Below are positions 4,588 through 64,000 of a DNA stretch of 64,000 bases, piece by piece. The DNA is from Parachryseolinea silvisoli (GTDB taxonomy: Bacteria > Bacteroidota > Bacteroidia > Cytophagales > Cyclobacteriaceae). Below the pieces are notes generated by a model that saw only the letters and a list, made by a program, of their open reading frames with translations, had not been told where the DNA came from and did no database searches. The stretch spans positions 434,001-498,000 of the forward strand of contig NZ_JAIOAO010000005.1 in the NCBI RefSeq assembly GCF_021190955.1, read 5' to 3'. Position numbers and translations under genes: made by a program. Every line of letters starts with the position of its first letter. Position 1 is the stretch's first letter.

Positions 4588-5205
4588 CTATTTGTTCCAA
4601 CGGTTAACGACCTCGGCGAACACTGGTTCGGTTCCCGAGTTGAAGCGCCCCCGAATTCTTAGAGGGCGGTTTGTCGAATTGTCGTTTTGGCCGTTGCCAT
4701 CGTATACAAAATCAAAGCGCATAACACCTGTCTTCTTATCGTGATCGTAGCGGGTGATCTTCAGATCACTCGAATAGTTTCGTCCGTAGTACTCGGCATA
4801 CAGATAGAGCTGCATGGTAGCCGACAGTGCCTTGCTAAACTCAAATACCAGATAGACCGGCACAAGCATTTCTTGTTGCGTGCCACGGTGCTGAATGGCT
4901 ACATCCAGCTGCAGGTATGGCGCGTGCGCTTCATTGCTCAGACGGCGGTTTAATTTCAGAGAGTCGCCCCCTATCCATACATTCGGGCGGTAGGCATATT
5001 GAAACGTTTCCGAAAACGGTGTACCATCAACACCTATACCTTCAATAACACCTTCAAAGTAGCCCGACGTAGGGTTATCTTGTAGATGTTCAGTTCGCTG
5101 CTGCCCGACGGGGCCATCATCGCCAGAGCAAGATGCTACTGATAGCAGCAGACATGTAAAAAATGTATGACTGGCCCCCTGAAAAATCCGACATGTACGT
5201 GTCAT
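4588..5205 (-). CDS. Hypothetical lipoprotein
   Basis: A 205-residue protein with a lipoprotein signal: a hydrophobic stretch ending in LLLSVASC, where Cys is the likely lipidated residue at about position 26. The mature part is beta-rich, with YFEGVIEGIGVDGTPFSETF near its start. It looks like a small all-beta extracytoplasmic domain, and I recognise no named family. The frame is open to 5232, but the ATG at 5205 places the signal peptide properly. It also lies about 30 bp below a TACCTTTG promoter element on this strand. It is a single-gene unit with its own terminator. Confidence 0.7.
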   Translation of the reverse strand: MTRTCRIFQGASHTFFTCLLLSVASCSGDDGPVGQQRTEHLQDNPTSGYFEGVIEGIGVDGTPFSETFQYAYRPNVWIGGDSLKLNRRLSNEAHAPYLQLDVAIQHRGTQQEMLVPVYLVFEFSKALSATMQLYLYAEYYGRNYSSDLKITRYDHDKKTGVMRFDFVYDGNGQNDNSTNRPLRIRGRFNSGTEPVFAEVVNRWNK

Positions 5206-5234
5206 ATCCGGAGGGGTTTTTTCTTTACACACTA

Positions 5235-5295
5235 CAAAGGTAGCATGTCAAAGATGCCGCATACATCTGTATATCTACGTAATATATACGTAGAT
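5235..5295 (-). promoter_or_regulatory. Promoter with upstream palindrome for the lipoprotein gene
   Basis: Read on the minus strand, TACCTTTG (complement of 5235-5242) matches the Bacteroidota -7 element TAnnTTTG exactly, about 30 bp before the ATG at 5205. No TTG is seen at -33. A perfect 9-bp inverted repeat, ATCTACGTA-ATATA-TACGTAGAT (5273-5295), lies about 30-53 bp upstream of the -7 box, where an activator could bind. The rest of the 5206-5611 gap holds only a weak terminator-like hairpin near 5531-5554. I see no gene in it. Confidence 0.5.
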
Positions 5296-5611: not shown

Positions 5612-7888
5612 TCAGTCGCGCACCACTTTGAAGACTTTTGTTGTGCCGTCTGTGTGCGCCAGCGTAACAATATAAATTCCTTTGTGGAAGCTTGCTATGC
5701 TAAAGCTATACTCCTTGCTCTTCACGTTTTTCACTTCGTTGATCACCTTTCCTTCTGCTGACAACACTTTTAGTGTGCGGATGGTCTTCGCGCTCTGGAT
5801 CTTGACAATGTCCGTTGCCGGATTGGGAGAAAGTGTGGCCGTATCATTGGCGCTTTCAGTTAATGCGCCTGTAACGGTACCGGGTGTCAGGCGAAAGATA
5901 GCAGCATCACTCGCCGGCATTTCACGTAAAAGATTGGAACCCTGCAAACTTGTTACCTTACCGGTAAAGAGCTCTTTTACGACATACTCACCCGGCGCAA
6001 TGCCCAGACGGCTCAGGCTCAGGTCGTATGTTTTCTTATCCTTATAATTGACGATCGCCACATACTGGCTCGATCCGATAGTCTGTACAAATACCTCGCT
6101 CGCGCTCTGCTCAGCATTTCCCTCCACCGGTGTAAACGCCACGCCGTTCCGGGCGATGGCAAGCAAGTCCTCGTTTTGCAGCAGCAGACGCGCCGTCGAC
6201 GTCCAGGCGCCGGAAGTCGAATAATCATCGCCGGTAATAAGTGATCCCGTAATCAGCCCCGAGGTGAATCGCGCCCGATTCACACCGATGGCTTCGTTTT
6301 TAAACACGAGGTGGTCGGCATCGATGTAATTATATACATGGGTCTGCCACCAGCCATAGGTTGTGCTGTTAAGCGTATATTCCGTCGCATTCATGTCGGA
6401 ATATGCATCACAGGCAATCCGACGCATGTGTCCATAGCGCCCGGTGGCCAGGTTTGGCGAAATCGCCACGTATACCAGCATCTTGCTATCGAGTCGATCG
6501 ATCAAGTACTCCATCCCTTTGCGGAAGGCCTGCATACCGGTCTTGATCGTTGGATCATAATAGCTATCGGCTTCGACTGCTGCGTGACCGATAAAATCTA
6601 TCTTGATCATCGTAAAACCACATTCTTTAAATTTATTGATCACCAATTCAATACGCTTTTTCGTAGCCGGGTGCGTGGGGTCCATGGCACGCGTACCGTC
6701 CAGATCGTGGTAGGCGCCATTTGCCTTCGTCCAGACCTGGCTATAGGTGTACTGACCACCGGTACCTTCTACTCCCGCACCACCATTCTTGCCCCAGTCG
6801 ACAAACGGTGCCCAGTAGACACCGGGTTGCAGGCCCTTTTCCTTACAGTAATTGGCAAAGATCTTTAGCTGGCTGAAGTCGCCCGCCAGACCTCCGCTGG
6901 CAAGCATATCCCAATACGAATCGAGATCAATATAGGCTGTGCCTCCACTGCGATACGCCGGCACGCTGGACGCAAAGAAATTCGCCACAGCCTTGCCTTT
7001 ATCGAGGTTAATATTGGTCTGAATGGCACCCCAGCTGTTCCAGCCAAAAGGCGTGGGTTTATCCCAGTTAAAAATATACCGAGGCTCAGCCAACACATTG
7101 GCTTTACCGTACTCGTCCAGGCCTTTGCGCCAATCGGTAAACAGCCCGACGAAAATCTTCGGCGATTTTACCTCCGTGCCGCTCAGCATACCATGCGCAC
7201 GCACGTCGCGGGTAACGCCCACCTCCGTATAACCACCCCACACGGCAAACTCTTTCAGTTGACCACCCGTGCCGACAGTTCTCACACCGGTCTTCCACGT
7301 CATGTGTTCAACGGACCCCGTCACCAGGCCGGTGCGGCCAATGTTGTCGTAATACGCCGTCACTTCCGAGCTCGTGTTGGTAACTTCTTTCGACAGCGAG
7401 AAGGACTGGTAGCGAATAAACGTATCGTTGTCAAAAGGCACCTTCAATACACGGTTGTCGCCGGTAGCGCCCAACGCCACGTTGGACGACACAAGCGGGG
7501 CCATGTAGTTGCTGCTGACCGAAGCCCCGCGCAGGTATACTTCCGTGAGAAAATATTCCTTCCCCGTATAGGCATAAAAAATCTGCTGCAGATCGGGCAG
7601 GCCGCTGCCGGAAAGGCTTACCACCAGTTTACGCCCTGTGCCAAACGCGTCGCTGATATCGCTCTGCTCGGCATTCCGGTTGGTATAGTCCGTGCTGCTG
7701 ATTTCAGCAGCACCGTTGTGCACCACGGCCCGGGCGTCGGTTATAAAGGCACGGTCGCCGGCAAAGACCGTGACCTGGCCGGTTTGCAGGTTATAGACAA
7801 TCCTGCCGTCAGTACCAAACGGCAGCGTTTCCTGTGCCGCGAGCAATCCGGGCAAGGCAAGCGCAAAAAGAAAAAGTATATACTTCAT
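5612..7888 (-). CDS. Secreted clan GH-D glycoside hydrolase (GH27/GH36-like) with T9SS sorting tail
   Basis: A 758-residue exported glycosidase, probably acting on alpha-galactosidic or related alpha-linked sugars. Signal peptide at about 1-18; N-terminal beta-sandwich about 20-270; (beta/alpha)8 barrel about 275-600 opening with FGWNSWG (281-287), the clan GH-D signature. The likely nucleophile is Asp431 in MIKIDFIGH. The acid/base is probably Asp494 or Asp498 in CDAYSDMNATEY. A C-terminal beta domain is followed by a type A T9SS sorting domain (about 685-758, starting LSPNPATD). It is the last gene of the FecR-SusC-SusD-GH cluster, separated from SusD by a hairpin. Exact family and substrate are not certain from sequence. 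Confidence 0.82.
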   Translation of the reverse strand: MKYILFLFALALPGLLAAQETLPFGTDGRIVYNLQTGQVTVFAGDRAFITDARAVVHNGAAEISSTDYTNRNAEQSDISDAFGTGRKLVVSLSGSGLPDLQQIFYAYTGKEYFLTEVYLRGASVSSNYMAPLVSSNVALGATGDNRVLKVPFDNDTFIRYQSFSLSKEVTNTSSEVTAYYDNIGRTGLVTGSVEHMTWKTGVRTVGTGGQLKEFAVWGGYTEVGVTRDVRAHGMLSGTEVKSPKIFVGLFTDWRKGLDEYGKANVLAEPRYIFNWDKPTPFGWNSWGAIQTNINLDKGKAVANFFASSVPAYRSGGTAYIDLDSYWDMLASGGLAGDFSQLKIFANYCKEKGLQPGVYWAPFVDWGKNGGAGVEGTGGQYTYSQVWTKANGAYHDLDGTRAMDPTHPATKKRIELVINKFKECGFTMIKIDFIGHAAVEADSYYDPTIKTGMQAFRKGMEYLIDRLDSKMLVYVAISPNLATGRYGHMRRIACDAYSDMNATEYTLNSTTYGWWQTHVYNYIDADHLVFKNEAIGVNRARFTSGLITGSLITGDDYSTSGAWTSTARLLLQNEDLLAIARNGVAFTPVEGNAEQSASEVFVQTIGSSQYVAIVNYKDKKTYDLSLSRLGIAPGEYVVKELFTGKVTSLQGSNLLREMPASDAAIFRLTPGTVTGALTESANDTATLSPNPATDIVKIQSAKTIRTLKVLSAEGKVINEVKNVKSKEYSFSIASFHKGIYIVTLAHTDGTTKVFKVVRD

Positions 7889-7920
7889 GTGGTCGTAAAT
7901 GATTCAAACGTCTGAAAATA

Positions 7921-7954
7921 GAAAAAGCGATGCCTCTACATGCACCGCTTTTTC
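7921..7954 (-). terminator. Intercistronic hairpin between susD and the glycosidase gene
   Basis: GAAAAAGCG and CGCTTTTTC form a 9-bp perfect stem around a 16-nt loop, with the T-run inside the 3' arm. It sits in the 74-bp gap between the SusD stop and the glycosidase start. It could act as a partial terminator or as a 3' stabilising structure for the susCD message, lowering expression of the enzyme relative to the importer. Confidence 0.6.
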
Positions 7955-7962
7955 TGTTTATG

Positions 7963-9459
7963 TTACCGATAACCTTCGTTCTGGTCTTTTTCGTCGATAT
8001 CGTCGTTCACTTTGATCTCGGTATCAGGGATCGGGAAACGATAGTGGTGGTCGTCGATGCTCGTCGCCCAGGGGTTACGTTCCTTCACCAGTGACACCAG
8101 CTTGCCTGTACGGATGAGGTCCATGCGACGCCATCCTTCAAACGCCAGCTCGCGCATACGCTCGTCGAGAATGTTGACCTTAAAGTCGGCCTGCGACATG
8201 CCAGCCGACCAGGTCTGCTCTTCGGTAAGCGATCCGCCGAAGGCGCGCGTACGCACGGTCGTGTTAACCAGTTCTACCGCCGCGCTGGTCTGGCCTAGCT
8301 CGTTCAGACACTCGGCCTTGCACAACAGGATGTCCGCCAGGCGCAAGTAGGGCATAGGGAAACCACCATTCCAGAAACCGATCACACCTTGTGTACGGAT
8401 ATCTTCAAACTTACGGGTGTGCGGACCCAACTCATCTGCCTGGCCTGTCCAGGTCATCTGCGGCACACGGCCGTCGGGCAATGTCAGATCATACCGGATG
8501 CTGGCGTTCTTACGTGTATCGCCAGGTTCCCAGACACCACCATCGGCTTTGTCCTTGTAGTAATATGCCGTCGGCAAGGCCAGGTCGTATCCGCCGAAAT
8601 AGGTCTTTCCATCAAGATCGGCTACAGGGCGTGAGCCTGCATGGTGCTGGGCCATGCTGTTGTCGGGTTGTATGTTCCGGAATTGAAACGAGTAGATCGA
8701 CTCCGACAGGTTTTGGTTTGCCTCTGCGTTAAAGATCGTGGCATAGTTCGGCACCAGTGTAAAGTGCGGAATGACCGCGTCGAACTGTTCGATGGCCTTG
8801 GCATAGTCGCGTACATTCGCGGCTTCCGGCGCATACATATATACTTTACCCAGCAGGGCCTGCGCAACATAGCGGGTGGGCCGCTTCAGATCAGTCTGTG
8901 TTTCGGGTAGATTCTCAGCAGCAAACGTCAGGTCTTTGATGACCTGCGCATAGACGTCGGGTATCGGCTGCCGACCCAAGCGCGGGTTGTCCGCGTCGAT
9001 GAGAGGCACTTCACCCCAAAACATCGCCACTTCAAACGTCATGGCTCCGCGTAGGAAAGCGCCGTATGCCTTGAGCTCGTTGGCGGTGGCATAACGGTAT
9101 ATCTGGCTGGCAGAGAAGATAATCGGCCACCGTGCATTCCACATGCCGGCAATCGTGGTGTTGGGTGCATTCAGGGCGCCATCATATTTATCCAGCGCTC
9201 CCTGGTCTGTGCTTTCCTTCACCTGTTGTCCGCCCTGCTGTGTTTCGTCGGTACCCAGGCTCAGGTAGAGCGCACCACGATCCTGACGGGTGTTGCGCCA
9301 CTGCGTAAGCGCACCGTCAACCGCCAGGCCGATACGCTTATCGTCGGAAAACAAATCTTCTGCAATCAATTGGGTCTTGGGCTTTTCGTCCAGGAAATCT
9401 GAACACGACGCCAGGACAGCCAGTGTCACAAGTATATAAAGTATCTTAATCTTTTTCAT
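7963..9459 (-). CDS. SusD/RagB family nutrient-binding outer membrane lipoprotein
   Basis: A 498-residue SusD homologue: a surface lipoprotein that captures substrate and caps the partner SusC barrel. The lipobox LAVLASC is followed by SDFLDEKPK, the usual SusD N-terminus. TPR-like helices cover the first half, and a C-terminal RagB/SusD domain contains RMRELAFEGWRRMDLIRTG and ends FPIPDTEIKVND. The frame is open to 9501, but the ATG at 9459 gives a proper signal peptide. It starts 31 bp after SusC and belongs to locus 1. Confidence 0.93.
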   Translation of the reverse strand: MKKIKILYILVTLAVLASCSDFLDEKPKTQLIAEDLFSDDKRIGLAVDGALTQWRNTRQDRGALYLSLGTDETQQGGQQVKESTDQGALDKYDGALNAPNTTIAGMWNARWPIIFSASQIYRYATANELKAYGAFLRGAMTFEVAMFWGEVPLIDADNPRLGRQPIPDVYAQVIKDLTFAAENLPETQTDLKRPTRYVAQALLGKVYMYAPEAANVRDYAKAIEQFDAVIPHFTLVPNYATIFNAEANQNLSESIYSFQFRNIQPDNSMAQHHAGSRPVADLDGKTYFGGYDLALPTAYYYKDKADGGVWEPGDTRKNASIRYDLTLPDGRVPQMTWTGQADELGPHTRKFEDIRTQGVIGFWNGGFPMPYLRLADILLCKAECLNELGQTSAAVELVNTTVRTRAFGGSLTEEQTWSAGMSQADFKVNILDERMRELAFEGWRRMDLIRTGKLVSLVKERNPWATSIDDHHYRFPIPDTEIKVNDDIDEKDQNEGYR

Positions 9460-51869: not shown

Positions 51870-54401
51870 ATGAGATCGAAGACCATTGTCCTGCTGGCCG
51901 GGGCCTGCCTGTGCCTGTATGCAGCGCACGCCCAAAACGCGAACTACATCTCCAACCGGGCGCCGCTGCAACCTACGCCATTCGTAGCCCTACCGTTGGG
52001 TAGCATTACCCCCAAGGGGTGGCTGGCGACGCAGCTAACACTGCAAAAGGACGGTCTGACGGGCCATTCCGAAGCGCTTTATGCCGAGCTGAAATCAGAC
52101 GCCGCCTGGCTGGGTGGCAAAGCGCCCGACTCTGACTGGGAGCGCCCTACCTATTATTTGCGGGGGCTGGTCGGGCTCGCATATTCCCTGCACAACGCCG
52201 AACTAAAACAACGCGCGCAAAAGTGGATCGATTGGGCACTGAACAGCCAAGCCGCCAACGGCAGCTTTGGCCCCACCACCAACAGCGACTGGTGGGCCCG
52301 CATGCCCCTGCTCTATGCCCTGTGCGACTACCAGGAAGCCACCCAGGACGCACGTGTTGTTCCCTTTCTGACGCGGTACTTCCAATACCAGCTGGCAGAG
52401 CTCGACCAGCGTCCGTTGAAAGAATGGGCCAGCGCGCGCGCCGCCGACAACGTCGACGTGATCTTCTGGCTCTACAACCGCACCGGCGATGCCTTTCTGC
52501 TGACACTGGCCAGCAAGATCAAAGCACAAGCCTATAATTATACCGATATCTTTTCGCAGAACACATTCCTCACGGACTTCCACAGCGACTTCTTCCCCAA
52601 GCACGGGGTAAACGTAGCACAGGCCTATAAATACGGACCGGTCTTTTACCAGCAAACACACGACGCCAAAGACAAAGATGCTTTCCTGAAAGGCATCAAA
52701 AACCTGCAGCCGTATCATACCCACATCACCGGCATGAACTCATGCACAGAGTTTCTTTCCGGCAACGCTTCTATACAAGGCGTAGAGCTTTGCAGCACAG
52801 CCGAGCGCATGTTCTGCGACGAGATCGCGCTGCGCGTTTTGGGCGATGCCGTCATTGGTGACGAGCTGGAAAAGATCACGTTCAACCAGCTGCCGGCGGG
52901 CATCAGCCCGGACTTCCGCCAACACCAGTATTACACGCTGCCCAACCAGGTGCAAAGCAAAGATGCCCCCAATGGCTTTGGCCAGGACTACGCGAACGGC
53001 GTCGTACCCGGCCCCTATTCGGGTTACCCCTGCTGCCGCTTCAACCTGCACATGGCATGGCCCAAATATACCCAGCACTGCTGGATGGCGACTCCCGATA
53101 ATGGCCTGGCAGCCACTGTATACGCACCCAGTAGTGTACAGGCGAAAGTGGCAAAAGGTATACCGGTAACAATTACCGAAGAGACCGCATATCCCTTCGA
53201 AGAGCAAATACGGTTTACCATTACAATCGACCGTGCCACGTCCTTCCCGCTGCAATTGCGTATACCGGCCTGGTGCGCCAAGCCGGTCGTAAAGGTTAAT
53301 GGTAAAGTACAGAAGGACGTCACTCCGGGAACGTATTATACCATTAAGAGAACCTGGGAGAACAACGACAAGGTTTCCCTCGACCTGCCCATGACATTGC
53401 AGACGTCAACCTGGGTTAACCACTCCATCGGTATTGAACGTGGTCCGTTGGTCTATACCTTACAGATGAAGGAGCAGTGGAAGCGCAAGAACGAGCACAC
53501 CTTTGACGGTATTGATTTTAGCGAATATGAAGTGCTACCCGCAAATGACTGGAACTATGGTTTGGTGATCGACCCGCAGTCGCCTGCCAAAAGCATCACA
53601 CTGGAGCGTGCCGCCATGCCGGAGAATCCTTTCCGCCCGGAGACCACGCCCGTACGGCTAAAAGTAAAAGCGCGGAAAGTAGCGGATTGGGGACTGGCCG
53701 CAAATGGTGTCCACGCCGCCGAGCCACCGCTCAACCCACAACCTACCGGCCCGGAAGAAATCGTCACCCTGGTACCTTTTGGAGCACAGCGTATTCGCGT
53801 CACCTACTTCCCGTTGATTGGCCCAACGGTCAAGCCGGAACAACAAACCTTCACCGACCCGTTTACAGCCGATGGAAAAAATCCCTGGGTCAACTTCGGT
53901 GGCGGCTGGCAGCAAGCCGGTGGCAAATACTTCTCGGAGTCCTATAATATCGACGGTGCCAAGTCGGTTGTCACGACAACAAGCTTCGACAACCTTACCA
54001 TGGATGCCACCGTCACCATCCTGAACGATGTGACCGAAGGTGGTGTGTTATTCCGGACATCCTCCCCTACTATGGGCGTCGATGCGTATAAGGGTTATTA
54101 CGCGGCCATCAGTACGAAAGGCAGCTTGATTCTGGGCAAGTCCAACAATGCCTGGCAATCGCTGCAGGAGATTCCGGCCACGATCATCAAAAACAAAGCC
54201 TACCACTTACGGGTTGTTGCCCAGGGCAATCGTATCCAGGTATACCTGGACGATATGAAAACACCACAGATCACGGTGTCAGACACTACGTATGCCTCAG
54301 GCGCCATTGGCCTGCGGCAGTACAGCGGCACCGACACGAGCGACCCGTCCGGTAAAACGGTGATCTACGAGAAAATATCGGTGCAGCGTGCCGGCCAATG
54401 A
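51870..54401 (+). CDS. GH127-type beta-L-arabinofuranosidase with C-terminal LamG-like domain
   Basis: An 843-residue exported enzyme. Signal peptide about 1-21 (LYAAHAQ). The (alpha/alpha)6 catalytic domain of the GH127 (former DUF1680) family spans about 35-410, followed by beta-sandwich domains to about 650. The zinc/thiolate active site is recognisable: Glu306 and Cys308 in VELCSTAERMF, and Cys388-Cys389 in GYPCCRFNLH, one of which would be the nucleophile. A LamG/DUF1080-like jelly roll (about 660-843, TFTDPFTADGKNPWVNFGGG start) is added at the C-terminus and may bind glycan. The likely role is release of beta-L-arabinofuranose or a related sugar from plant material. Confidence 0.88.
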   Translation: MRSKTIVLLAGACLCLYAAHAQNANYISNRAPLQPTPFVALPLGSITPKGWLATQLTLQKDGLTGHSEALYAELKSDAAWLGGKAPDSDWERPTYYLRGLVGLAYSLHNAELKQRAQKWIDWALNSQAANGSFGPTTNSDWWARMPLLYALCDYQEATQDARVVPFLTRYFQYQLAELDQRPLKEWASARAADNVDVIFWLYNRTGDAFLLTLASKIKAQAYNYTDIFSQNTFLTDFHSDFFPKHGVNVAQAYKYGPVFYQQTHDAKDKDAFLKGIKNLQPYHTHITGMNSCTEFLSGNASIQGVELCSTAERMFCDEIALRVLGDAVIGDELEKITFNQLPAGISPDFRQHQYYTLPNQVQSKDAPNGFGQDYANGVVPGPYSGYPCCRFNLHMAWPKYTQHCWMATPDNGLAATVYAPSSVQAKVAKGIPVTITEETAYPFEEQIRFTITIDRATSFPLQLRIPAWCAKPVVKVNGKVQKDVTPGTYYTIKRTWENNDKVSLDLPMTLQTSTWVNHSIGIERGPLVYTLQMKEQWKRKNEHTFDGIDFSEYEVLPANDWNYGLVIDPQSPAKSITLERAAMPENPFRPETTPVRLKVKARKVADWGLAANGVHAAEPPLNPQPTGPEEIVTLVPFGAQRIRVTYFPLIGPTVKPEQQTFTDPFTADGKNPWVNFGGGWQQAGGKYFSESYNIDGAKSVVTTTSFDNLTMDATVTILNDVTEGGVLFRTSSPTMGVDAYKGYYAAISTKGSLILGKSNNAWQSLQEIPATIIKNKAYHLRVVAQGNRIQVYLDDMKTPQITVSDTTYASGAIGLRQYSGTDTSDPSGKTVIYEKISVQRAGQ

Positions 54402-56976: not shown

Positions 56977-57933
56977 TTAAACAAACATCTCCTCCACCTT
57001 GTCCTGTTTCTGAAAGATCTCCCGGATATGATAGGTCTTCTTATGCTGCGATTCGTAGTATACGCGCATAATCAACTCGGCAATAATCCCGAACGTCAGA
57101 AATTGGATGCCCGCCAGCACCAGCGTCACACCCAGGATCAGCAAGGGACGCCCCCAGATCTCGTTCCCCAGCAGCTTAAGGACAAGGAAGTATACACTAA
57201 TGGTCGATCCCGAGAAAAAACAAAGTATACCCAACGGACCAAAGAAATGGATCGGACGTTTGAAATAGAATTTAAAAAACCACATCAGGATAAGATCGCT
57301 CAACACCTTGAATGTGCGGCCCAACCCATATTTCGATTGACCAAAGCGCCGCGGGTGGTGTTTGACATCCACATCCGTAATTCTTCCACCTTCGAGCACC
57401 GCCAGGATGGGAATGAAGCGATGAAGCTCGCCGTAGAGTCCCAGGTTCTTGGCTATCTCTTTGCGAAATACCTTGAGTGTACAGCCATAGTCACGAATGG
57501 TAATACCGGTCATTTTGCGAATCAACCGGTTGGCCAATTTGCTGGGAAGTTTGCGCAGCAACTCGCCGTCCTGTCGATTCTTACGTGTGCCGGCGACCAT
57601 GTCCCAACCTTCCGATTTTAATTTCTCCAGCATAGCCGGGATATCGGTGGGGTCATTTTGCAAGTCGCCATCCATGGTGGCAATATATTCGCCGCAGGCT
57701 TCTTGTATACCCGCCGCCATAGCCGCCGTCTGACCGTAGTTGGCGTTAAAGATCACGAGCTTTACATGCGCATCGGCATGTAGTTTTACTTCGGCCACCG
57801 TACGGTCGGTGGAACCGTCGTCGACGATGATGACCTCGTATTCATAGCCCGGCAGCGCCGCGGCAAGCTGCTGTAACAACGGCCGAATATTTTCCTGCTC
57901 GTTGAAGACGGTGATGACGATGGATAATTCCAT
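56977..57933 (-). CDS. GT2 polyprenyl-phosphate glycosyltransferase (DPM1/ArnC-like)
   Basis: A 318-residue membrane-associated glycosyltransferase that should transfer a sugar from a nucleotide donor to undecaprenyl phosphate. GT-A fold about 1-225: VITVFNEQENI, VDDGSTD (37-43), the DxD motif in ATMDGDLQNDP, and HHPRRFGQSKYG (about 212-223), which is typical of DPM1/ArnC/GtrB. Two C-terminal transmembrane helices follow (about 232-258 and 268-295). It is divergent from an ArnT-like gene, the enzyme that would use its product. Confidence 0.92.
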   Translation of the reverse strand: MELSIVITVFNEQENIRPLLQQLAAALPGYEYEVIIVDDGSTDRTVAEVKLHADAHVKLVIFNANYGQTAAMAAGIQEACGEYIATMDGDLQNDPTDIPAMLEKLKSEGWDMVAGTRKNRQDGELLRKLPSKLANRLIRKMTGITIRDYGCTLKVFRKEIAKNLGLYGELHRFIPILAVLEGGRITDVDVKHHPRRFGQSKYGLGRTFKVLSDLILMWFFKFYFKRPIHFFGPLGILCFFSGSTISVYFLVLKLLGNEIWGRPLLILGVTLVLAGIQFLTFGIIAELIMRVYYESQHKKTYHIREIFQKQDKVEEMFV

Positions 57934-58071
57934 AGTTGCAAAGAAACAATGTTGATTTTTACCCTTCGTGAATTCGCTGTTGTGATGCCATTAAGTAATT
58001 TCACGATTCGGTAACGCAGCTGTTGCAGCGGTGTGGTAAGTTGGTGCTGAATTCTGGATTAATTCTGTATT

Positions 58072-59628
58072 ATGAACAATCGTCTCCTCCTGCTGGTGAT
58101 TCTGAGCGCCCTGGTGTTCTTTGCTAACCTTGGTGGCACCTCCATTTATATCCTCGACGAAGCCCGCAACGCCGGCTGCGCCATGGAGATGTGGCAGCGG
58201 CACGACCCGATCGTTCCTACATTCAACGACGTACTGCGCACCGACAAACCACCCTTGCATTATTTTTTTATGATGCTGGCATATACCATCGGTGGCGTTA
58301 CACCGTTTACAGCACGACTGTTCTCCGCGCTCGCCGGCGTTATGCTGGTGGTGTTTGTATACCGCAAAGTGCGCACCGCTTTAAACGAACCGGTCGCCTT
58401 TTATACTGGGCTGGTGTTGCTCAGCTCCCTGCAGCTGGCCATTCAGTTTCACCTGGCTGTGCCCGATCCGTATCTTATTCTGTGGATGGCCGTCTCGCTC
58501 CTCTCCTTTTATACAGGATTTGAGGAAAACCGCCGCGCGGACATGCGTTGGTTCTATGTTGCGGCGGCACTCGCGTTTCTCACCAAAGGCCTTATCGCGA
58601 TTGTCTTCCCCGGCATAATCATTTCGTTTTACTTACTCCTAACCCAGCGTGTCAACCTGACATCGTTCCGCAAGTTACGGCTGCACTGGGGAATAATGTT
58701 GTTCCTGATCATTGCCCTGCCGTGGTATATCGCGGTGGGATACCAAACGGATGGCGCCTGGTTGCGCGGTTTCTTTATCGAGCACAACCTGGACCGTTAC
58801 ACCCGCACCATGGAAGGCCATCGCGGCTTTCCATTGGCGCCCTTCGCAATCTTACTACTGGCGCTATTGCCCTTTTCCGTATTTATTATACAAGCCGTGA
58901 GGCTTGCACTGCGTCAGCGAAAAGAGCATCCTTTTTTACTATACTGCCTGATCGTTGTGGTAACCATTGCCGGCTTTTTCAGCTTCTCAAAAACTATTCT
59001 GCCCAGCTATCCGGCTCCGGCTATTCCTTTTCTGGCCGTCGTGCTGGGCTACTACCTGCACGCACTGGTGGAAGGCCGCCATACGCACGGGACACTCGCT
59101 TCCTTTATTGCCCATGGCCTGCTGTGCCTCGCGATTCCCATCGGGGTATATATCGCGCTGGGGCAAGAGAAACCCCTGGCTCCGCTACAATGGACGGCCT
59201 GGCTGTTTGTGGCGCTGCCCGTGGGCTGTCTGACGGGAATGCTCCTCTATTTCCGCGGCCGGCGCGCGGGACTGATATATGTATGGAGTGGCGCCTGGAT
59301 GCTGGCCACGCTGTTGTTTTTCTACGTTGCCTTCCCGGCCGTGGATCAAAAGAATCCGGTAACAGAATCACTCCCAATCTTAACATCGTATCCCGATCAT
59401 GAGTTTGTAGCGTACCGACGTTTCAACCCGGCATTTGTCTTTGCGCTGGGCCGAACCCTGCCGATGATCGATTCGCCGCAGCAAGTCGAAAACCTCCTGA
59501 AAAAAAAGATCATAATCTTCTCCCGCACCCAATACCTGGACGACTTTAAAGATTATCCTTCGCTGAAAGTGATTTACCGGGGGCGCGATCTATTTGAACG
59601 AGGTGAAACCGTCCTGCTCGCGAACTGA
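58072..59628 (+). CDS. ArnT-like GT39/GT83 membrane glycosyltransferase
   Basis: A 518-residue polytopic glycosyltransferase with about 12 transmembrane helices. The first periplasmic loop holds the acidic pair Asp29-Glu30 (YILDEARNAG), followed by RTDKPPLHYFF, the KPP motif of PMT/ArnT enzymes. ArnT proteins transfer a sugar from undecaprenyl phosphate to lipid A. Its neighbours (polyprenyl-phosphate GT2, PAP2 phosphatase, LAB_N protein) support a lipid A or envelope-lipid acceptor. Its 3' end overlaps the convergent PAP2 gene by 39 bp. The sugar transferred is unknown. Confidence 0.9.
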   Translation: MNNRLLLLVILSALVFFANLGGTSIYILDEARNAGCAMEMWQRHDPIVPTFNDVLRTDKPPLHYFFMMLAYTIGGVTPFTARLFSALAGVMLVVFVYRKVRTALNEPVAFYTGLVLLSSLQLAIQFHLAVPDPYLILWMAVSLLSFYTGFEENRRADMRWFYVAAALAFLTKGLIAIVFPGIIISFYLLLTQRVNLTSFRKLRLHWGIMLFLIIALPWYIAVGYQTDGAWLRGFFIEHNLDRYTRTMEGHRGFPLAPFAILLLALLPFSVFIIQAVRLALRQRKEHPFLLYCLIVVVTIAGFFSFSKTILPSYPAPAIPFLAVVLGYYLHALVEGRHTHGTLASFIAHGLLCLAIPIGVYIALGQEKPLAPLQWTAWLFVALPVGCLTGMLLYFRGRRAGLIYVWSGAWMLATLLFFYVAFPAVDQKNPVTESLPILTSYPDHEFVAYRRFNPAFVFALGRTLPMIDSPQQVENLLKKKIIIFSRTQYLDDFKDYPSLKVIYRGRDLFERGETVLLAN

Positions 59629-60297
59629 GAGCTCGCGGCCGGCACTCCCCCAACGAATAATGATCCAGCGCATCATCCACTCGGGCTTGCGCATATAGGC
59701 AACGCCGTAGTAAGCAGCGATCCCCACCACATTGCCGATCAGCGCTCCGGCAGCTACATCCCCGACAAAATGCTGCAACAGATAGACGCGCGAAAGCCCA
59801 ACCAGCACCGACAGGATCAACAACAGGACCGTAACAAAACGATTGCTCGAACACAACGCCAGAAATACACACAGTCCAAAGATGGTAACAGTATGGCCGG
59901 AAGGAAAGCTATACACTTGGTGCAATGCTACGCCTGGCACCAGGTGTACCGATTGGCCTTCGAGGAAGGCCGCGGGCCGCAGGGTTCGGGGGAACAACAC
60001 CCGTTTGAACAGACTGACAATCAAACCTTGCACTACACCGTTAGCCAGCATGGCGATGGAATTATACACCCGGTACAGCAAAAGCACGATGGCAGCCAAC
60101 ACGACAAAGGTACCATCTCCCATCAAGGTGATACCGGAAAACAATACATCGAGCCAGGGATGATGCAACCCATTGATAAGAAGAACGGATTCTATTGGCG
60201 CATAGACAATGGCAATCCCCGCCAGCACGAGCACGGGCACAAAAAACAACACCATCGTATCGACATTAAAGCGGTCCTGGGTTATAAACATAGGCAT
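59590..60297 (-). CDS. PAP2 family lipid phosphatase
   Basis: A 235-residue integral membrane phosphatase. The three PAP2 motifs are visible: Lys98 with Arg107-Pro108 (K-x8-RP), PSGH at 133-136, and SR-x5-H-x3-D with Ser170, Arg171, His177 and Asp181. Six transmembrane helices. Family members include undecaprenyl pyrophosphate phosphatases and the lipid A phosphatases LpxE/LpxF; the setting beside ArnT-like and LAB_N genes favours a lipid A or polyprenyl-phosphate substrate. A start at Met15 (60255) is possible because TAGCTTTG lies only 14 bp upstream of 60297. Confidence 0.9.
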   Translation of the reverse strand: MPMFITQDRFNVDTMVLFFVPVLVLAGIAIVYAPIESVLLINGLHHPWLDVLFSGITLMGDGTFVVLAAIVLLLYRVYNSIAMLANGVVQGLIVSLFKRVLFPRTLRPAAFLEGQSVHLVPGVALHQVYSFPSGHTVTIFGLCVFLALCSSNRFVTVLLLILSVLVGLSRVYLLQHFVGDVAAGALIGNVVGIAAYYGVAYMRKPEWMMRWIIIRWGSAGRELSVREQDGFTSFK

Positions 60298-60310
60298 AGT
60301 GGTTCTGCTC

Positions 60311-60318
60311 CAAAGCTA
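60311..60318 (-). promoter_or_regulatory. -7 element for the PAP2 gene
   Basis: On the minus strand this reads TAGCTTTG, an exact TAnnTTTG match. It lies 14 bp before the ATG at 60297, or 56 bp before the alternative ATG at 60255. No -33 TTG is evident. Confidence 0.35.
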
Positions 60319-60476
60319 CCGTTGGATTGCTTCTTTATCGTGACTGGAAGGTAAACGAAGATTTAAGTTCGTGGTGTATAAACGACAGGACTACAGATTT
60401 GCAACATGTTCCGATAATACTGCTTTCACGAATTCATAAAGGATAGCGCGGGCACACCTTTATACCGGTATACTTT

Positions 60477-61106
60477 TTATGAGTCGCTGGTGGCGTTTTT
60501 TCCCAACATGATATTGCGCGTGTAGATCACCACGCCCAATGCCTGCGCCAACAACAGCACAGGATCAACGCGATAGATGGCATATATTAGCACCAACCAG
60601 GCGCCGACCAGGCTGATACCCCAAAACCCCAGCGGAAACACGGAGGCGCGAGCCTTCTCGGAAAAATACCATTGGTATATAAAACGAAAACTTAAAAATC
60701 CTTGTCCTATCGCGCCGGCGATCATAAGTGGATGCAAGAAATCACTTTGCGTCAACAACAACGTTCCGTAGTCATGCCCCGCCAGCAGCAACCACACCGC
60801 GAGCACGACCGGCATCGCCACTACCAACACGCGGAAAGGTAGCGGAATGCGCCGCCAGGCATCTTTCAACTGCAGGTTGCGAATATAAATACCGTAAGAG
60901 GTGAGCTGCCCGGCAAAAATGACCACGTCACCGCGCAGAATGCCATAGAGCAATAACAGGAAGGACGCCACCAGACTGGTCTGCCAAAAAAAGGTAGGCG
61001 AGATCACCCGACCGGCCCGCTCCGACTGAATCCACTGCACAATCATGCGGGCGGCAAACAACGCCTGGGCGAAAAACCCTAAACCGAAAATAAGGTATGT
61101 CTGCAT
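60477..61106 (-). CDS. Double LAB_N (lipid-A-disaccharide-synthase N-terminal-like) membrane protein
   Basis: A 209-residue membrane protein made of two copies of the three-helix LAB_N module. Copy one (about 3-75): FGLGFFAQALFAARMIVQWIQSE...SPTFFWQTSLVASFLLLLYGI...YIRNLQL. Copy two (about 125-205): AGAIGQGFLSFRFIYQWYFSEK...PLGFWGISLVGAWLVLIYAI...YTRNIML. Such stand-alone LAB_N proteins are found with lipid A-modifying glycosyltransferase genes and may handle polyprenyl-linked sugars. It lies upstream of PAP2 on the same strand (179-bp gap). Exact function not established. Confidence 0.87.
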   Translation of the reverse strand: MQTYLIFGLGFFAQALFAARMIVQWIQSERAGRVISPTFFWQTSLVASFLLLLYGILRGDVVIFAGQLTSYGIYIRNLQLKDAWRRIPLPFRVLVVAMPVVLAVWLLLAGHDYGTLLLTQSDFLHPLMIAGAIGQGFLSFRFIYQWYFSEKARASVFPLGFWGISLVGAWLVLIYAIYRVDPVLLLAQALGVVIYTRNIMLGKNATSDS

Positions 61107-61462: not shown

Positions 61463-64000
61463 ATGAGACACTTTTATCGGATTCTATTTTTACTGCTGGC
61501 CGCCGGTGGGTCGCCAGCCTTTGCGCAGACCCTGGTGTGGTCGGACGAATTTTCGCAGCCGCGGCTTGACGCCGAAAAATGGACCTACGAAGTAGGTGGC
61601 AGTGGCTTTGGCAACGGCGAGTTGCAGTACTACACTTCGGGCGAATCGAACGTCTTTGTCGGTTCCAAAACCAATGCCGCCGACACCGGCTACCTGGTGA
61701 TCGAAGCCCGCCGCGAGAACTACGGCGTGCCCCCGGAAAATCGCCAGTTTACTTCCGGCCGTATTGTCACCTCCGGAAAATTCAACGTCAAGTACGGCAC
61801 CATCCAGGCACGCATCAAACTGCCCAACTTGCAGAACGGCCTGTGGCCTGCCTTCTGGATGCTGGGCGCCAACTATCCGACCGATGGCTGGCCACGCTCC
61901 GGTGAGATCGACATTCTCGAAGCCGGTTTTCAAACCGACTGGCAGACCAACGTCGCCAATCACAAGAGCCACTCGACGGTACACTGGTTCCAGGACAACT
62001 TCCAGGTAATAGACCCCAATGCACCGGGCAACGGCTGGTGGGGCAATGCATCCGCCACCGGCAGCAATACCATTGCGGGTAACTTCTACGACGATTTCCA
62101 CATCTTCAAAATAACGTGGACACCGACACAAATTCTCGGCTACGTCGACAACGTACAGTTTTATACCTTCAACATTCCTGTCGGCGATCCGAACTTCACC
62201 GAGTTCACCACGAATCCCTATTACGTCATCATGAACCTCGCGGTCGGCGGCAGTAACTTTGTAGGCATCACCGACCCTGCACAAATCACCGCGCCGATGC
62301 CGGCGCAAATGATCGTCGACTATGTGCGTGTATATGCAAACGCCAACACCCAAACATTCCAGGCCAAGAACCTGCCACGGCAGACCGGCACGTTTGGTGT
62401 CTTTACCGAAACGACACCGGTAACAGCCTCCCTCGGCGCCAGCCCGACGATCGATGTATGGAGCAACCTGACAGCTGCACCTACAACACCACAGGAAGGA
62501 TCGGCAGTGCTATCATTCACCGCCAACCCGGGTAACTGGTTTGGTCTGGGCATCCCTACAGGCGCGACAAACGTCAAGAACATGCAGAACTTCATTGACG
62601 GTACTATGCGCTTCCGGATGAAGACCACATCGTCGTGGCCCCTCTCGATCGGCGTGATCAGCACGGCCAACGGCAACGCCCAGGCGAGCACACAAAGTAA
62701 AACCGTACGCCTCGACCCGGCCGGCGCCAATCAGTATGGCCTGGTACGCGACGGACAGTGGCATGAAGTGGTGATCCCGATCAGCGCCTTTGGCAACGTC
62801 GAGTTCCGTTCCATCAACACCATGTTTTACCTCGTGGGTGATGCTCCTTCGTCTGCCGTCACGTTTGCCGTCGACAACATCTATTGGCAGGACGGCACCA
62901 AGGTCACCCCGCAAAACGGCAACTATATACTGTACAGCGACACGCAAACCGGTGTAGACCGTTTTGACCTCGGCACCGACGGCAACTTCTTTGTATGGGA
63001 AAATACATTGACCCCGCTGGCCACGACACCTTCGGAAGGCAGCAGTGTATTGTCGTTCACCCACAACAACAAAGGCTGGTTTGGCGCGGCCTTTACGCCG
63101 AACAACGTACACAACCTCACGGCGTACAAAAATACGTCGGCCCGGCTGGTGCTGTCATTAAAGACGTCGGATACCACCACGCCTTTTTACCTGGGCATGA
63201 AGAGTGGTACCCGCGACGGCGAAGGCCAGAAGTGGATTGCGTTTGAACCCGGACAAACACCGTATGGATTCGTACGCAACGGCACCTGGCAAACGATCCA
63301 AATTCCGCTGAGCCAATTCTATGAATCGGTCAACCTGATGGAAGTTACGCAGTTGTTGCAAATCCTGGGAACAGGCAACATCGCAAACATCGCGCTGGAC
63401 AACATTTACATCACGGGCGGCGGCACGGCCGAACCCGACAACGGTGGCAGCAACGTAGCCCCTGTCGCAAATGCCGGTGCCGACAAAGCCATTACGCTCC
63501 CCACAAGCAACACAACATTCAACGGTAGCGGTACCGACAGCGATGGTACCATCAGCAGCTATGCCTGGACACGCGTCAGCGGTCCCAACACACCCACCCT
63601 GAGCGGCGCTACGACAGCCACGTTATCGGTGAGTGGTACAATCGCCGGTACCTATGTGTTTCGCCTGACCGTAACCGACAACGGTGGACTAACGGCCAGC
63701 GACGATGTAACGCTTACAGTGAACCCCGCCGCGACCGTCAACCTGGCCTTATTGAAGCCTGTCACCGTTTCGTCTATCGAAGCCGTTGGCACACCCGGCA
63801 GCGCAGCCGTGGATGGCGTGGCGACGAGCCGCTGGAGCAGTGTATTTAGCGACCCGCAGTGGCTGTATGTAGACCTGGGTGCCACATACTCCATCTCACA
63901 AGTGAAGATCACCTGGGAGGCCGCCTATGGCCGCGACTATGTTGTTGAAGTATCGCCGAATGCATCGACCTGGACGCCGCTGCGCACCGTGACAGGCAAC
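61463..64000 (+). CDS. GH16 multidomain glycoside hydrolase (3' end outside window)
   Basis: At least 846 codons from the ATG at 61463, still open at the window edge. Signal peptide about 1-21. GH16 catalytic domain about 24-290 with the active-site motif GEIDILE (nucleophile Glu148, helper Asp150, acid/base Glu153), ending [11 protein letters not shown]. Two homologous beta-sandwich repeats of ~150 residues follow, sharing EGS(A/S)VLSFT, WFG and a terminal DNIY. Then a PKD domain ([16 protein letters not shown] start) and the beginning of an F5/8-type (discoidin, CBM32-like) domain ([12 protein letters not shown]). The layout suggests an extracellular laminarinase or similar beta-glucanase or galactanase; a T9SS tail may lie beyond the edge. 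Confidence 0.9.

Follow-up and report, generated by a model that had tools for sequence, protein, structure and literature searches.

The stretch of DNA analysed here (64,000 nucleotides of Parachryseolinea silvisoli, hereafter the window; G000:C9:434001-498000, within a 7.95 Mb genome) contains four neighbouring genes that probably (at a rough probability of 0.62) form a three-component polyprenyl-monophosphate-sugar glycosylation unit together with a lipid phosphatase, in which a double LAB_N membrane protein replaces the flippase-like partner. The four open reading frames (ORFs) named in the original prediction, which read them as a lipid A remodelling island, are all present, and each is backed by Pfam. 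Judged from sequence, their products appear to be a synthase-type GT2, an ArnT-type GT-C, a PAP2 phosphatase and a SWEET-related LAB_N protein, encoded in a neighbourhood that recurs in other genomes. The LAB_N gene, to which the original prediction assigned no role, is the most informative of the four:

56977..57933, minus strand: GT2, an ArnC/GtrB-type polyprenyl-phosphate-sugar synthase with hydrophobic C-terminal segments (318 amino acids; PF00535, 120 bits)
58072..59628, plus strand: GT-C glycosyltransferase, ArnT-like (518 amino acids; PMT_2, 68.5 bits)
59590..60297, minus strand: PAP2-superfamily lipid phosphatase, convergent with the GT-C gene (235 amino acids; PF01569, 65.5 bits)
60477..61106, minus strand: double LAB_N protein (PF07578) with SWEET/PQ-loop-like 3+1+3 helices, proposed as a flippase-like or presenting partner (209 amino acids; 175 bits)

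The GT2 and GT-C genes are divergent, with 138 bp between them, and the GT-C and PAP2 genes are convergent, with PAP2 overlapping the 3' end of GT-C by 39 bp. A single operon of four genes is ruled out because the strands are mixed (-,+,-,- in the order GT2, GT-C, PAP2, LAB_N).

In three-component systems (GtrA/GtrB/Gtr and GtcA/CsbB/YfhO), as described in PMC8035078, undecaprenyl phosphate is loaded by a GT2, a membrane protein is presumed to be the flippase, and a GT-C acts on the outside. The window set resembles these in its combination of GT2, membrane protein and GT-C, and differs from them in having a SWEET/PQ-loop-like LAB_N protein in place of GtrA or Wzx, and in including a PAP2 gene. 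By family homology, the GT2 would load a sugar from a nucleotide sugar onto undecaprenyl phosphate on the cytoplasmic side of the membrane. Genomic context suggests that the seven-helix double LAB_N protein may then move or present the loaded lipid to the periplasmic side, having replaced the LPG_synthase_TM protein carried by most relatives of the unit. Again by family homology, the ArnT-like GT-C would pass the sugar to an envelope acceptor, with recycling of the freed undecaprenyl phosphate. Less firmly, the PAP2 protein might dephosphorylate a periplasmic lipid, either lipid A (in the manner of LpxE) or a polyprenyl (di)phosphate. The sugar, the acceptor and the PAP2 substrate can be assigned only weakly.

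The two glycosyltransferases are largely as the original prediction described them. Among solved proteins, a PDB search with the window GT2 ranks ArnC first (190 bits), followed by GtrB (115 bits) and dolichol-phosphate-mannose synthase (72 bits), matches that would suit the GT2 role of a three-component system. Its score against the ArnC equivalog model is 203.8 bits, short of the cut-off of 529 bits. In the GT2 tree it falls in one starred group with its orthologues from the family; ArnC, GtrB and two paralogues from the window genome lie on long branches, and their placement is unsure. For the window GT-C, the sole meaningful PDB match is ArnT (5ezm, E 1.4e-24), the second match being a cytochrome subunit at chance level (E 0.39). 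A profile of the window GT-C and 12 orthologues (13 rows), plus E. coli ArnT, again matches ArnT alone in the PDB, the included E. coli ArnT row itself favouring this match. In this 14-row alignment, the DE, (D/E)KP, DP and KG positions are common to the window GT-C and E. coli ArnT. The ArnT equivalog cut-off is likewise missed (122.5 against 567 bits), and the PMT_2 and ArnT matches together would be consistent with the outside-acting transferase of a three-component system. The locus is like the Arn (aminoarabinose) pathway, ArnC/ArnT/ArnEF, in that the closest solved relatives of its two glycosyltransferases are ArnC and ArnT, and unlike it in that both scores lie far below the equivalog cut-offs and in that no arnA, arnB, arnD or arnEF gene is found among the ten neighbouring proteins scanned (no genome-wide search for them was made).

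The window LAB_N protein scores 175.1 bits against the Pfam model, in two stretches (gathering cut-off 26.7 bits), and 42 double-LAB_N proteins have the conserved, repeated motifs SE(K/R), SPxxFW and GQxxxYxxRN in common. Searched against the PDB, a LAB_N profile ranks SemiSWEETs first (E 8.2e-5). Of the 42 aligned members, 40 match the MtN3_slv model at E values no higher than 10 (the lowest being 6.7e-6); the window protein scores 15.3 bits (E 0.021), below the cut-off of 23.7 bits. An AlphaFold2 model of the window protein (pLDDT 86) has the helix order 3+1+3. Single-domain LAB_N proteins of 91-111 amino acids occur on plasmids of Fusobacteriota and Alphaproteobacteria and double ones in Bacteroidota, one Hymenobacter plasmid record annotating a double LAB_N as two genes. 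The single and double (3+1+3) LAB_N proteins seem to parallel SemiSWEETs and SWEETs, to which their profiles show some similarity; they differ from these in possessing the three motifs above and in their frequent partnership with GT2 and GT-C.

This partnership was followed across the phylum and on plasmids. An even phylum sample of 296 genomes contains 11 double-LAB_N loci outside the window genome (a count from which 14 weak single-domain matches, E 5e-6 or worse, were excluded), with a GT2 near LAB_N in 9, a GT-C near in 9 and both near in 8. The misses are G023 (neither partner), G222 (no GT-C) and G048:C15 (no GT2). The GT2 of G107 (L160), whose LAB_N belongs to a GT2-LAB_N-GT-C set, gives two separate partial matches and may be a damaged gene. 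A LAB_N match is present in 18 plasmid records, and 13 of these loci were examined, with a GT2 beside LAB_N in 11, a GT-C in view in 12 (one of these, L225, a short weak match to a gene annotated as hypothetical) and both in 10; the misses are two Hymenobacter loci (no GT2 in view, GT-C ~3.4 kb away) and the Paenibacillus locus (no GT-C in view). In four genomes (G026, G027, G032 and G133), the double LAB_N and the GT-C form one ORF of ~750 amino acids straight after the GT2 gene (Pfam run on two of the four):

L117:1427-3691: LAB_N::GT-C fusion ORF
L118:6799-9045: LAB_N::GT-C fusion ORF
L119:6634-8898: LAB_N::GT-C fusion ORF
L165:6309-8570: LAB_N::GT-C fusion ORF

A model of one fusion (pLDDT 85, pTM 0.78) retrieves ArnT in a structure search (E 4e-16), with SWEETs lower (best E 0.54, probability 0.87).

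The surroundings of these sets also bear on the sugar. SDR epimerase-type genes stand alongside several LAB_N sets, and those of Cetobacterium and Paenibacillus (L221, L226) contain a UDP-glucose 6-dehydrogenase-type gene as well. Because both types of gene adjoin the GT2-LAB_N sets there, the sugar in these two cases may be a hexuronic acid such as galacturonic acid, as the gene families suggest, with no epimerase model cut-off reached. Neither an epimerase nor a UDP-glucose dehydrogenase-type gene is found among the ten window neighbours scanned. The Paenibacillus set, on a Paenibacillus cellulosilyticus plasmid (Bacillota), has genes of both these types together with LAB_N and GT2. In 7 of the 10 annotated plasmid loci (L220, L221, L222, L224, L227, L228 and L232), LAB_N has two-component regulator genes nearby, which hints at a stress-regulated envelope modification. 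An ORF of an outer-membrane efflux protein cluster is near LAB_N in 12/27 loci (Pfam run on one member), and some double LAB_N genes with no adjacent GT2 (L014, L016, L019, L227, L228) have genes for outer-membrane efflux proteins or for RND efflux nearby.

The unit itself was traced through its GT-C. Orthologues at E 1e-60 or better are present at 80 places in 78 of 295 genomes of the family (the window genome included), and neighbourhoods were read at 51 of the 80, comprising the window, 12 further loci and 38 more (20 best-ranked and 18 spread down the list). Partners were scored by tblastn (E 1e-4), with GT2 and PAP2 required within 2.5 kb of GT-C and a third gene within 4 kb; contig ends cut one side of L110, L111, L246, L263 and L272. 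A GT2 lies near the GT-C in 36/51 loci and a PAP2 gene in 40/51 (window included), more than chance. Of the four-gene neighbourhood whose conservation the original prediction proposed as a check, GT2, GT-C and PAP2 are conserved, but LAB_N stands beside the unit in just 2/51 loci. L107 (G019), counted among the 36, retains a C-terminal GT2 remnant (a 95-amino-acid ORF, 4981-5268) beside LPG_synthase_TM and GT-C, with PAP2 present. At L116 (G001:C162), left out of the 51-locus count, the GT-C orthologue of G001, at the end of a contig, is broken into two frames and adjoins PAP2.

In the 36 GT2-bearing loci, the third slot is occupied by LPG_synthase_TM (identified as PF03706 on four members tested) in 27, by LAB_N in 2, by neither in 7 and by both in none, and the 15 loci without GT2 contain neither. 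LPG_synthase_TM is related to the flippase region of MprF. On its own, the mutual exclusivity of LAB_N and LPG_synthase_TM is no more than suggestive. The two LAB_N cases are the window and G503 (L262), where LAB_N directly adjoins the GT2 on the usual LPG_synthase_TM side (tblastn matches 47 bp apart, ORFs overlapping by 83 bp), and the starred branches of a GT-C tree made by a quick method require at least two separate LAB_N changes. In this tree the window GT-C clusters with its counterparts from G474, G449 and G492 (SH-aLRT 95), all three accompanied by LPG_synthase_TM. The window GT2 shares 78-79% identity with the GT2 proteins of these genomes and 68-70% with those of G003, G004 and G005, members of its own genus that have GT2, GT-C and PAP2 and no third gene. 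No GtrA gene is found beside the window GT2/GT-C pair, where LAB_N stands instead. From this context it is inferred that polyprenyl-phosphate-sugar systems have in LAB_N an exchangeable third component not recognised before, a stronger point than the lipid A assignment. The window may be a natural replacement event displaying the interchange, as part of a tentative reading whose chances, taken as a whole, are not far short of even.

The phylogeny of LAB_N gives some indication of where the window copy comes from. Its sister is the LAB_N of G107 (60% identity, support 99/86), and it stands apart from the clade holding the other copy of its own genome (97/91):

L034:8918-9574 (G000:C6): second double LAB_N of the window genome, beside a PG_1098/THUMP-type methyltransferase gene, in the same surroundings as in the six other species of the genus searched

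The copies of these seven species precede a gene resembling the PG_1098 methyltransferase gene found in L034 and L008 (Pfam run on those two), and the gene before them is presumably infB. The two window glycosyltransferases, by contrast, both fall outside the groups formed by operon-type GT2 and operon-type GT-C proteins (100/100 each). The GT2/GT-C pair now next to this operon-lineage LAB_N is therefore a different one from that of the operon type. Three other origins were rejected: duplication of the other LAB_N of the genome, by the separation of the two copies in the tree; import of LAB_N along with its own GT2 and GT-C, by the position of the window pair; and recent acquisition of foreign DNA, by composition (LAB_N G+C 0.530, third-position 0.667, similar to the neighbours). 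No operon-type GT2/GT-C pair is present in the window genome at any of the 4 PMT_2 match sites or at the 7 of 12 GT2 match sites that were opened.

With respect to the acceptor, the original prediction held that lipid A receives a sugar from an ArnC/ArnT-like pair and loses a phosphate to the PAP2 enzyme. An envelope polyprenyl-phosphate-sugar glycosylation unit is well supported, but the lipid A acceptor is unsupported as stated, the cut-offs of the ArnC, ArnT and LpxE equivalog models all being missed. This reading is compatible with LAB_N as the third component; it is plausible and unproven for the window, and on balance doubtful. That ArnT alone gives an informative PDB match to the GT-C speaks for it, as do the occurrence of PAP2 near GT-C at most loci and the two-component regulators near plasmid LAB_N genes, which would fit a response to envelope stress. 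The PAP2 protein gives mixed testimony. A PDB search with its single sequence gives LpxE 51 bits and the next match 31 bits, and a 10-row PAP2 profile again places LpxE nearest (102.7 against 47.7 bits, a lead of 55 bits). By contrast, undecaprenyl-diphosphatase models of NCBIfam match 10/10 PAP2 rows and the LpxE model only 5/10, all four NCBIfam phosphatase models score the window protein far under their cut-offs, and that of LpxE is missed by a wide interval (19 against 177 bits). Because the NCBIfam models disagree with the PDB ranking of LpxE, the PAP2 substrate may be either lipid A or a polyprenyl (di)phosphate. Two of the three PAP2 motifs claimed in the original prediction, PSGH and SRX5HX3D, occur in exact form; the remaining one, the first, reads K-x8-RP instead of the KX6RP given in the motif description of PMC2229476. 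The form with two extra residues occurs in 10/10 aligned rows, with K98, R107 and P108 invariant (window included), a further difference from LpxE. The Paenibacillus set, in which LAB_N and GT2 accompany a UDP-glucose dehydrogenase-type gene, also speaks against this reading, since Bacillota such as Paenibacillus are not known to have lipid A.

A surface polysaccharide or protein is an equally doubtful candidate for the acceptor. Teichoic acids and polysaccharides are the acceptors of the GT-C enzymes in the three-component systems described in PMC8035078 and PMC11127046, and the unit is flanked by GH127 and GH16 proteins; against this reading, PDB sequence searches match ArnT and not protein O-mannosyltransferases.

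A different role for LAB_N can also be envisaged, as an accessory subunit that retains, presents or orients the polyprenyl-phosphate-sugar or the acceptor for the GT-C, with the crossing of the membrane left to another protein or occurring spontaneously. The fusions to GT-C in four genomes would be no harder to explain with such a subunit than with a flippase, and the existence of units that lack a third gene agrees with it, but the occupation by LAB_N of the place of LPG_synthase_TM in two units makes it unlikely.

The assignment of LAB_N as the third component has several observations against it. Within the window, PAP2 sits between LAB_N and GT-C, and at L262 LAB_N and GT2 converge, whereas LPG_synthase_TM runs in the same direction as GT2. 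The chance that both LAB_N genes fall among the 9/36 units without LPG_synthase_TM is 0.057 (calculated by hand). Seven of the 36 units, one of them near a contig end, have no third gene, so an unlinked flippase can serve; in the window genome, GtrA is matched twice (on C5, and on C9 at a distance of ~314 kb from the unit), and a single further LPG_synthase_TM paralogue is present. In each of the six additional species of the genus searched there is one LAB_N match, located elsewhere than the unit. On G000:C5, another GT2 stands beside a PMT_2-type GT-C (L199:5644-6723 and 7371-8690), with no LAB_N in the stretch read, and the window LAB_N might serve this pair instead. In the search with the window LAB_N, only 4 of the 26 genome-contig loci found, mostly from Cyclobacteriaceae and other Cytophagales, have both GT2 and GT-C near. 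The remaining 22 include 20 in a single LAB_N clade that also holds the infB-type copies (28 rows, 97/91), L015 outside this clade and L018, which was not placed. The L262 LAB_N forms a long branch and is not the sister of the window copy, and its addition to the tree leaves just the pairing of the window with L160 starred (98/85). Structure comparison is also weak, the best Foldseek match of the LAB_N model being SWEET13 (E 0.38), and VIA-align giving SWEET chains Z scores of 6.4 and 6.3 amid unrelated helical chains scoring up to 9.9.

Several of these observations (the single LAB_N-bearing unit among seven species of the genus, the position of LAB_N beyond PAP2, the 22 loci without both partners and the L199 pair) would suit a LAB_N that is a bystander, namely a SWEET-like sugar transporter lying by chance beside a conserved GT2/GT-C/PAP2 unit, but the operon-type lineage of the window copy, with its sister in a GT2-LAB_N-GT-C operon, the second genome in which LAB_N directly adjoins the GT2 of the same kind of unit, the GT-C fusions and the GT2-LAB_N-GT-C sets that cross phyla make this improbable.

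MPDU1 is described, in the section of PMC3281891 concerned with it, as a PQ-loop factor for the use of dolichol-phosphate-mannose and dolichol-phosphate-glucose. LAB_N would similarly be of PQ-loop type and act with polyprenyl-monophosphate-sugar donors, a likeness of family and role description only, and differs from MPDU1 in matching the MtN3/SemiSWEET models; the PQ-loop model PF04193 does not figure in the Pfam list that gave the MtN3_slv matches. The boldest lead from this analogy is that LAB_N could be a bacterial counterpart of MPDU1. No earlier proposal of a flippase or MPDU1-like role for LAB_N was recognised in the literature covered, namely open-access PMC papers. A compact bacterial SWEET-like protein, encoded with or fused to its partner enzymes, would bring the testing of such a role to simple bacteria, and, if true, a function would be gained for a family whose name in genome annotation refers to lipid A synthesis.

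Some minor features of the locus complete its description. A promoter and terminator scan gives 4 and 7 sites against 5.0 and 5.8 in shuffled sequences. The unit is bordered on one side by a MacB/FtsX-type permease and a GH127 protein and on the other by a GH16 protein, carbohydrate-active enzymes thus lying on both sides (window 51870-54401 and 61463-64000).

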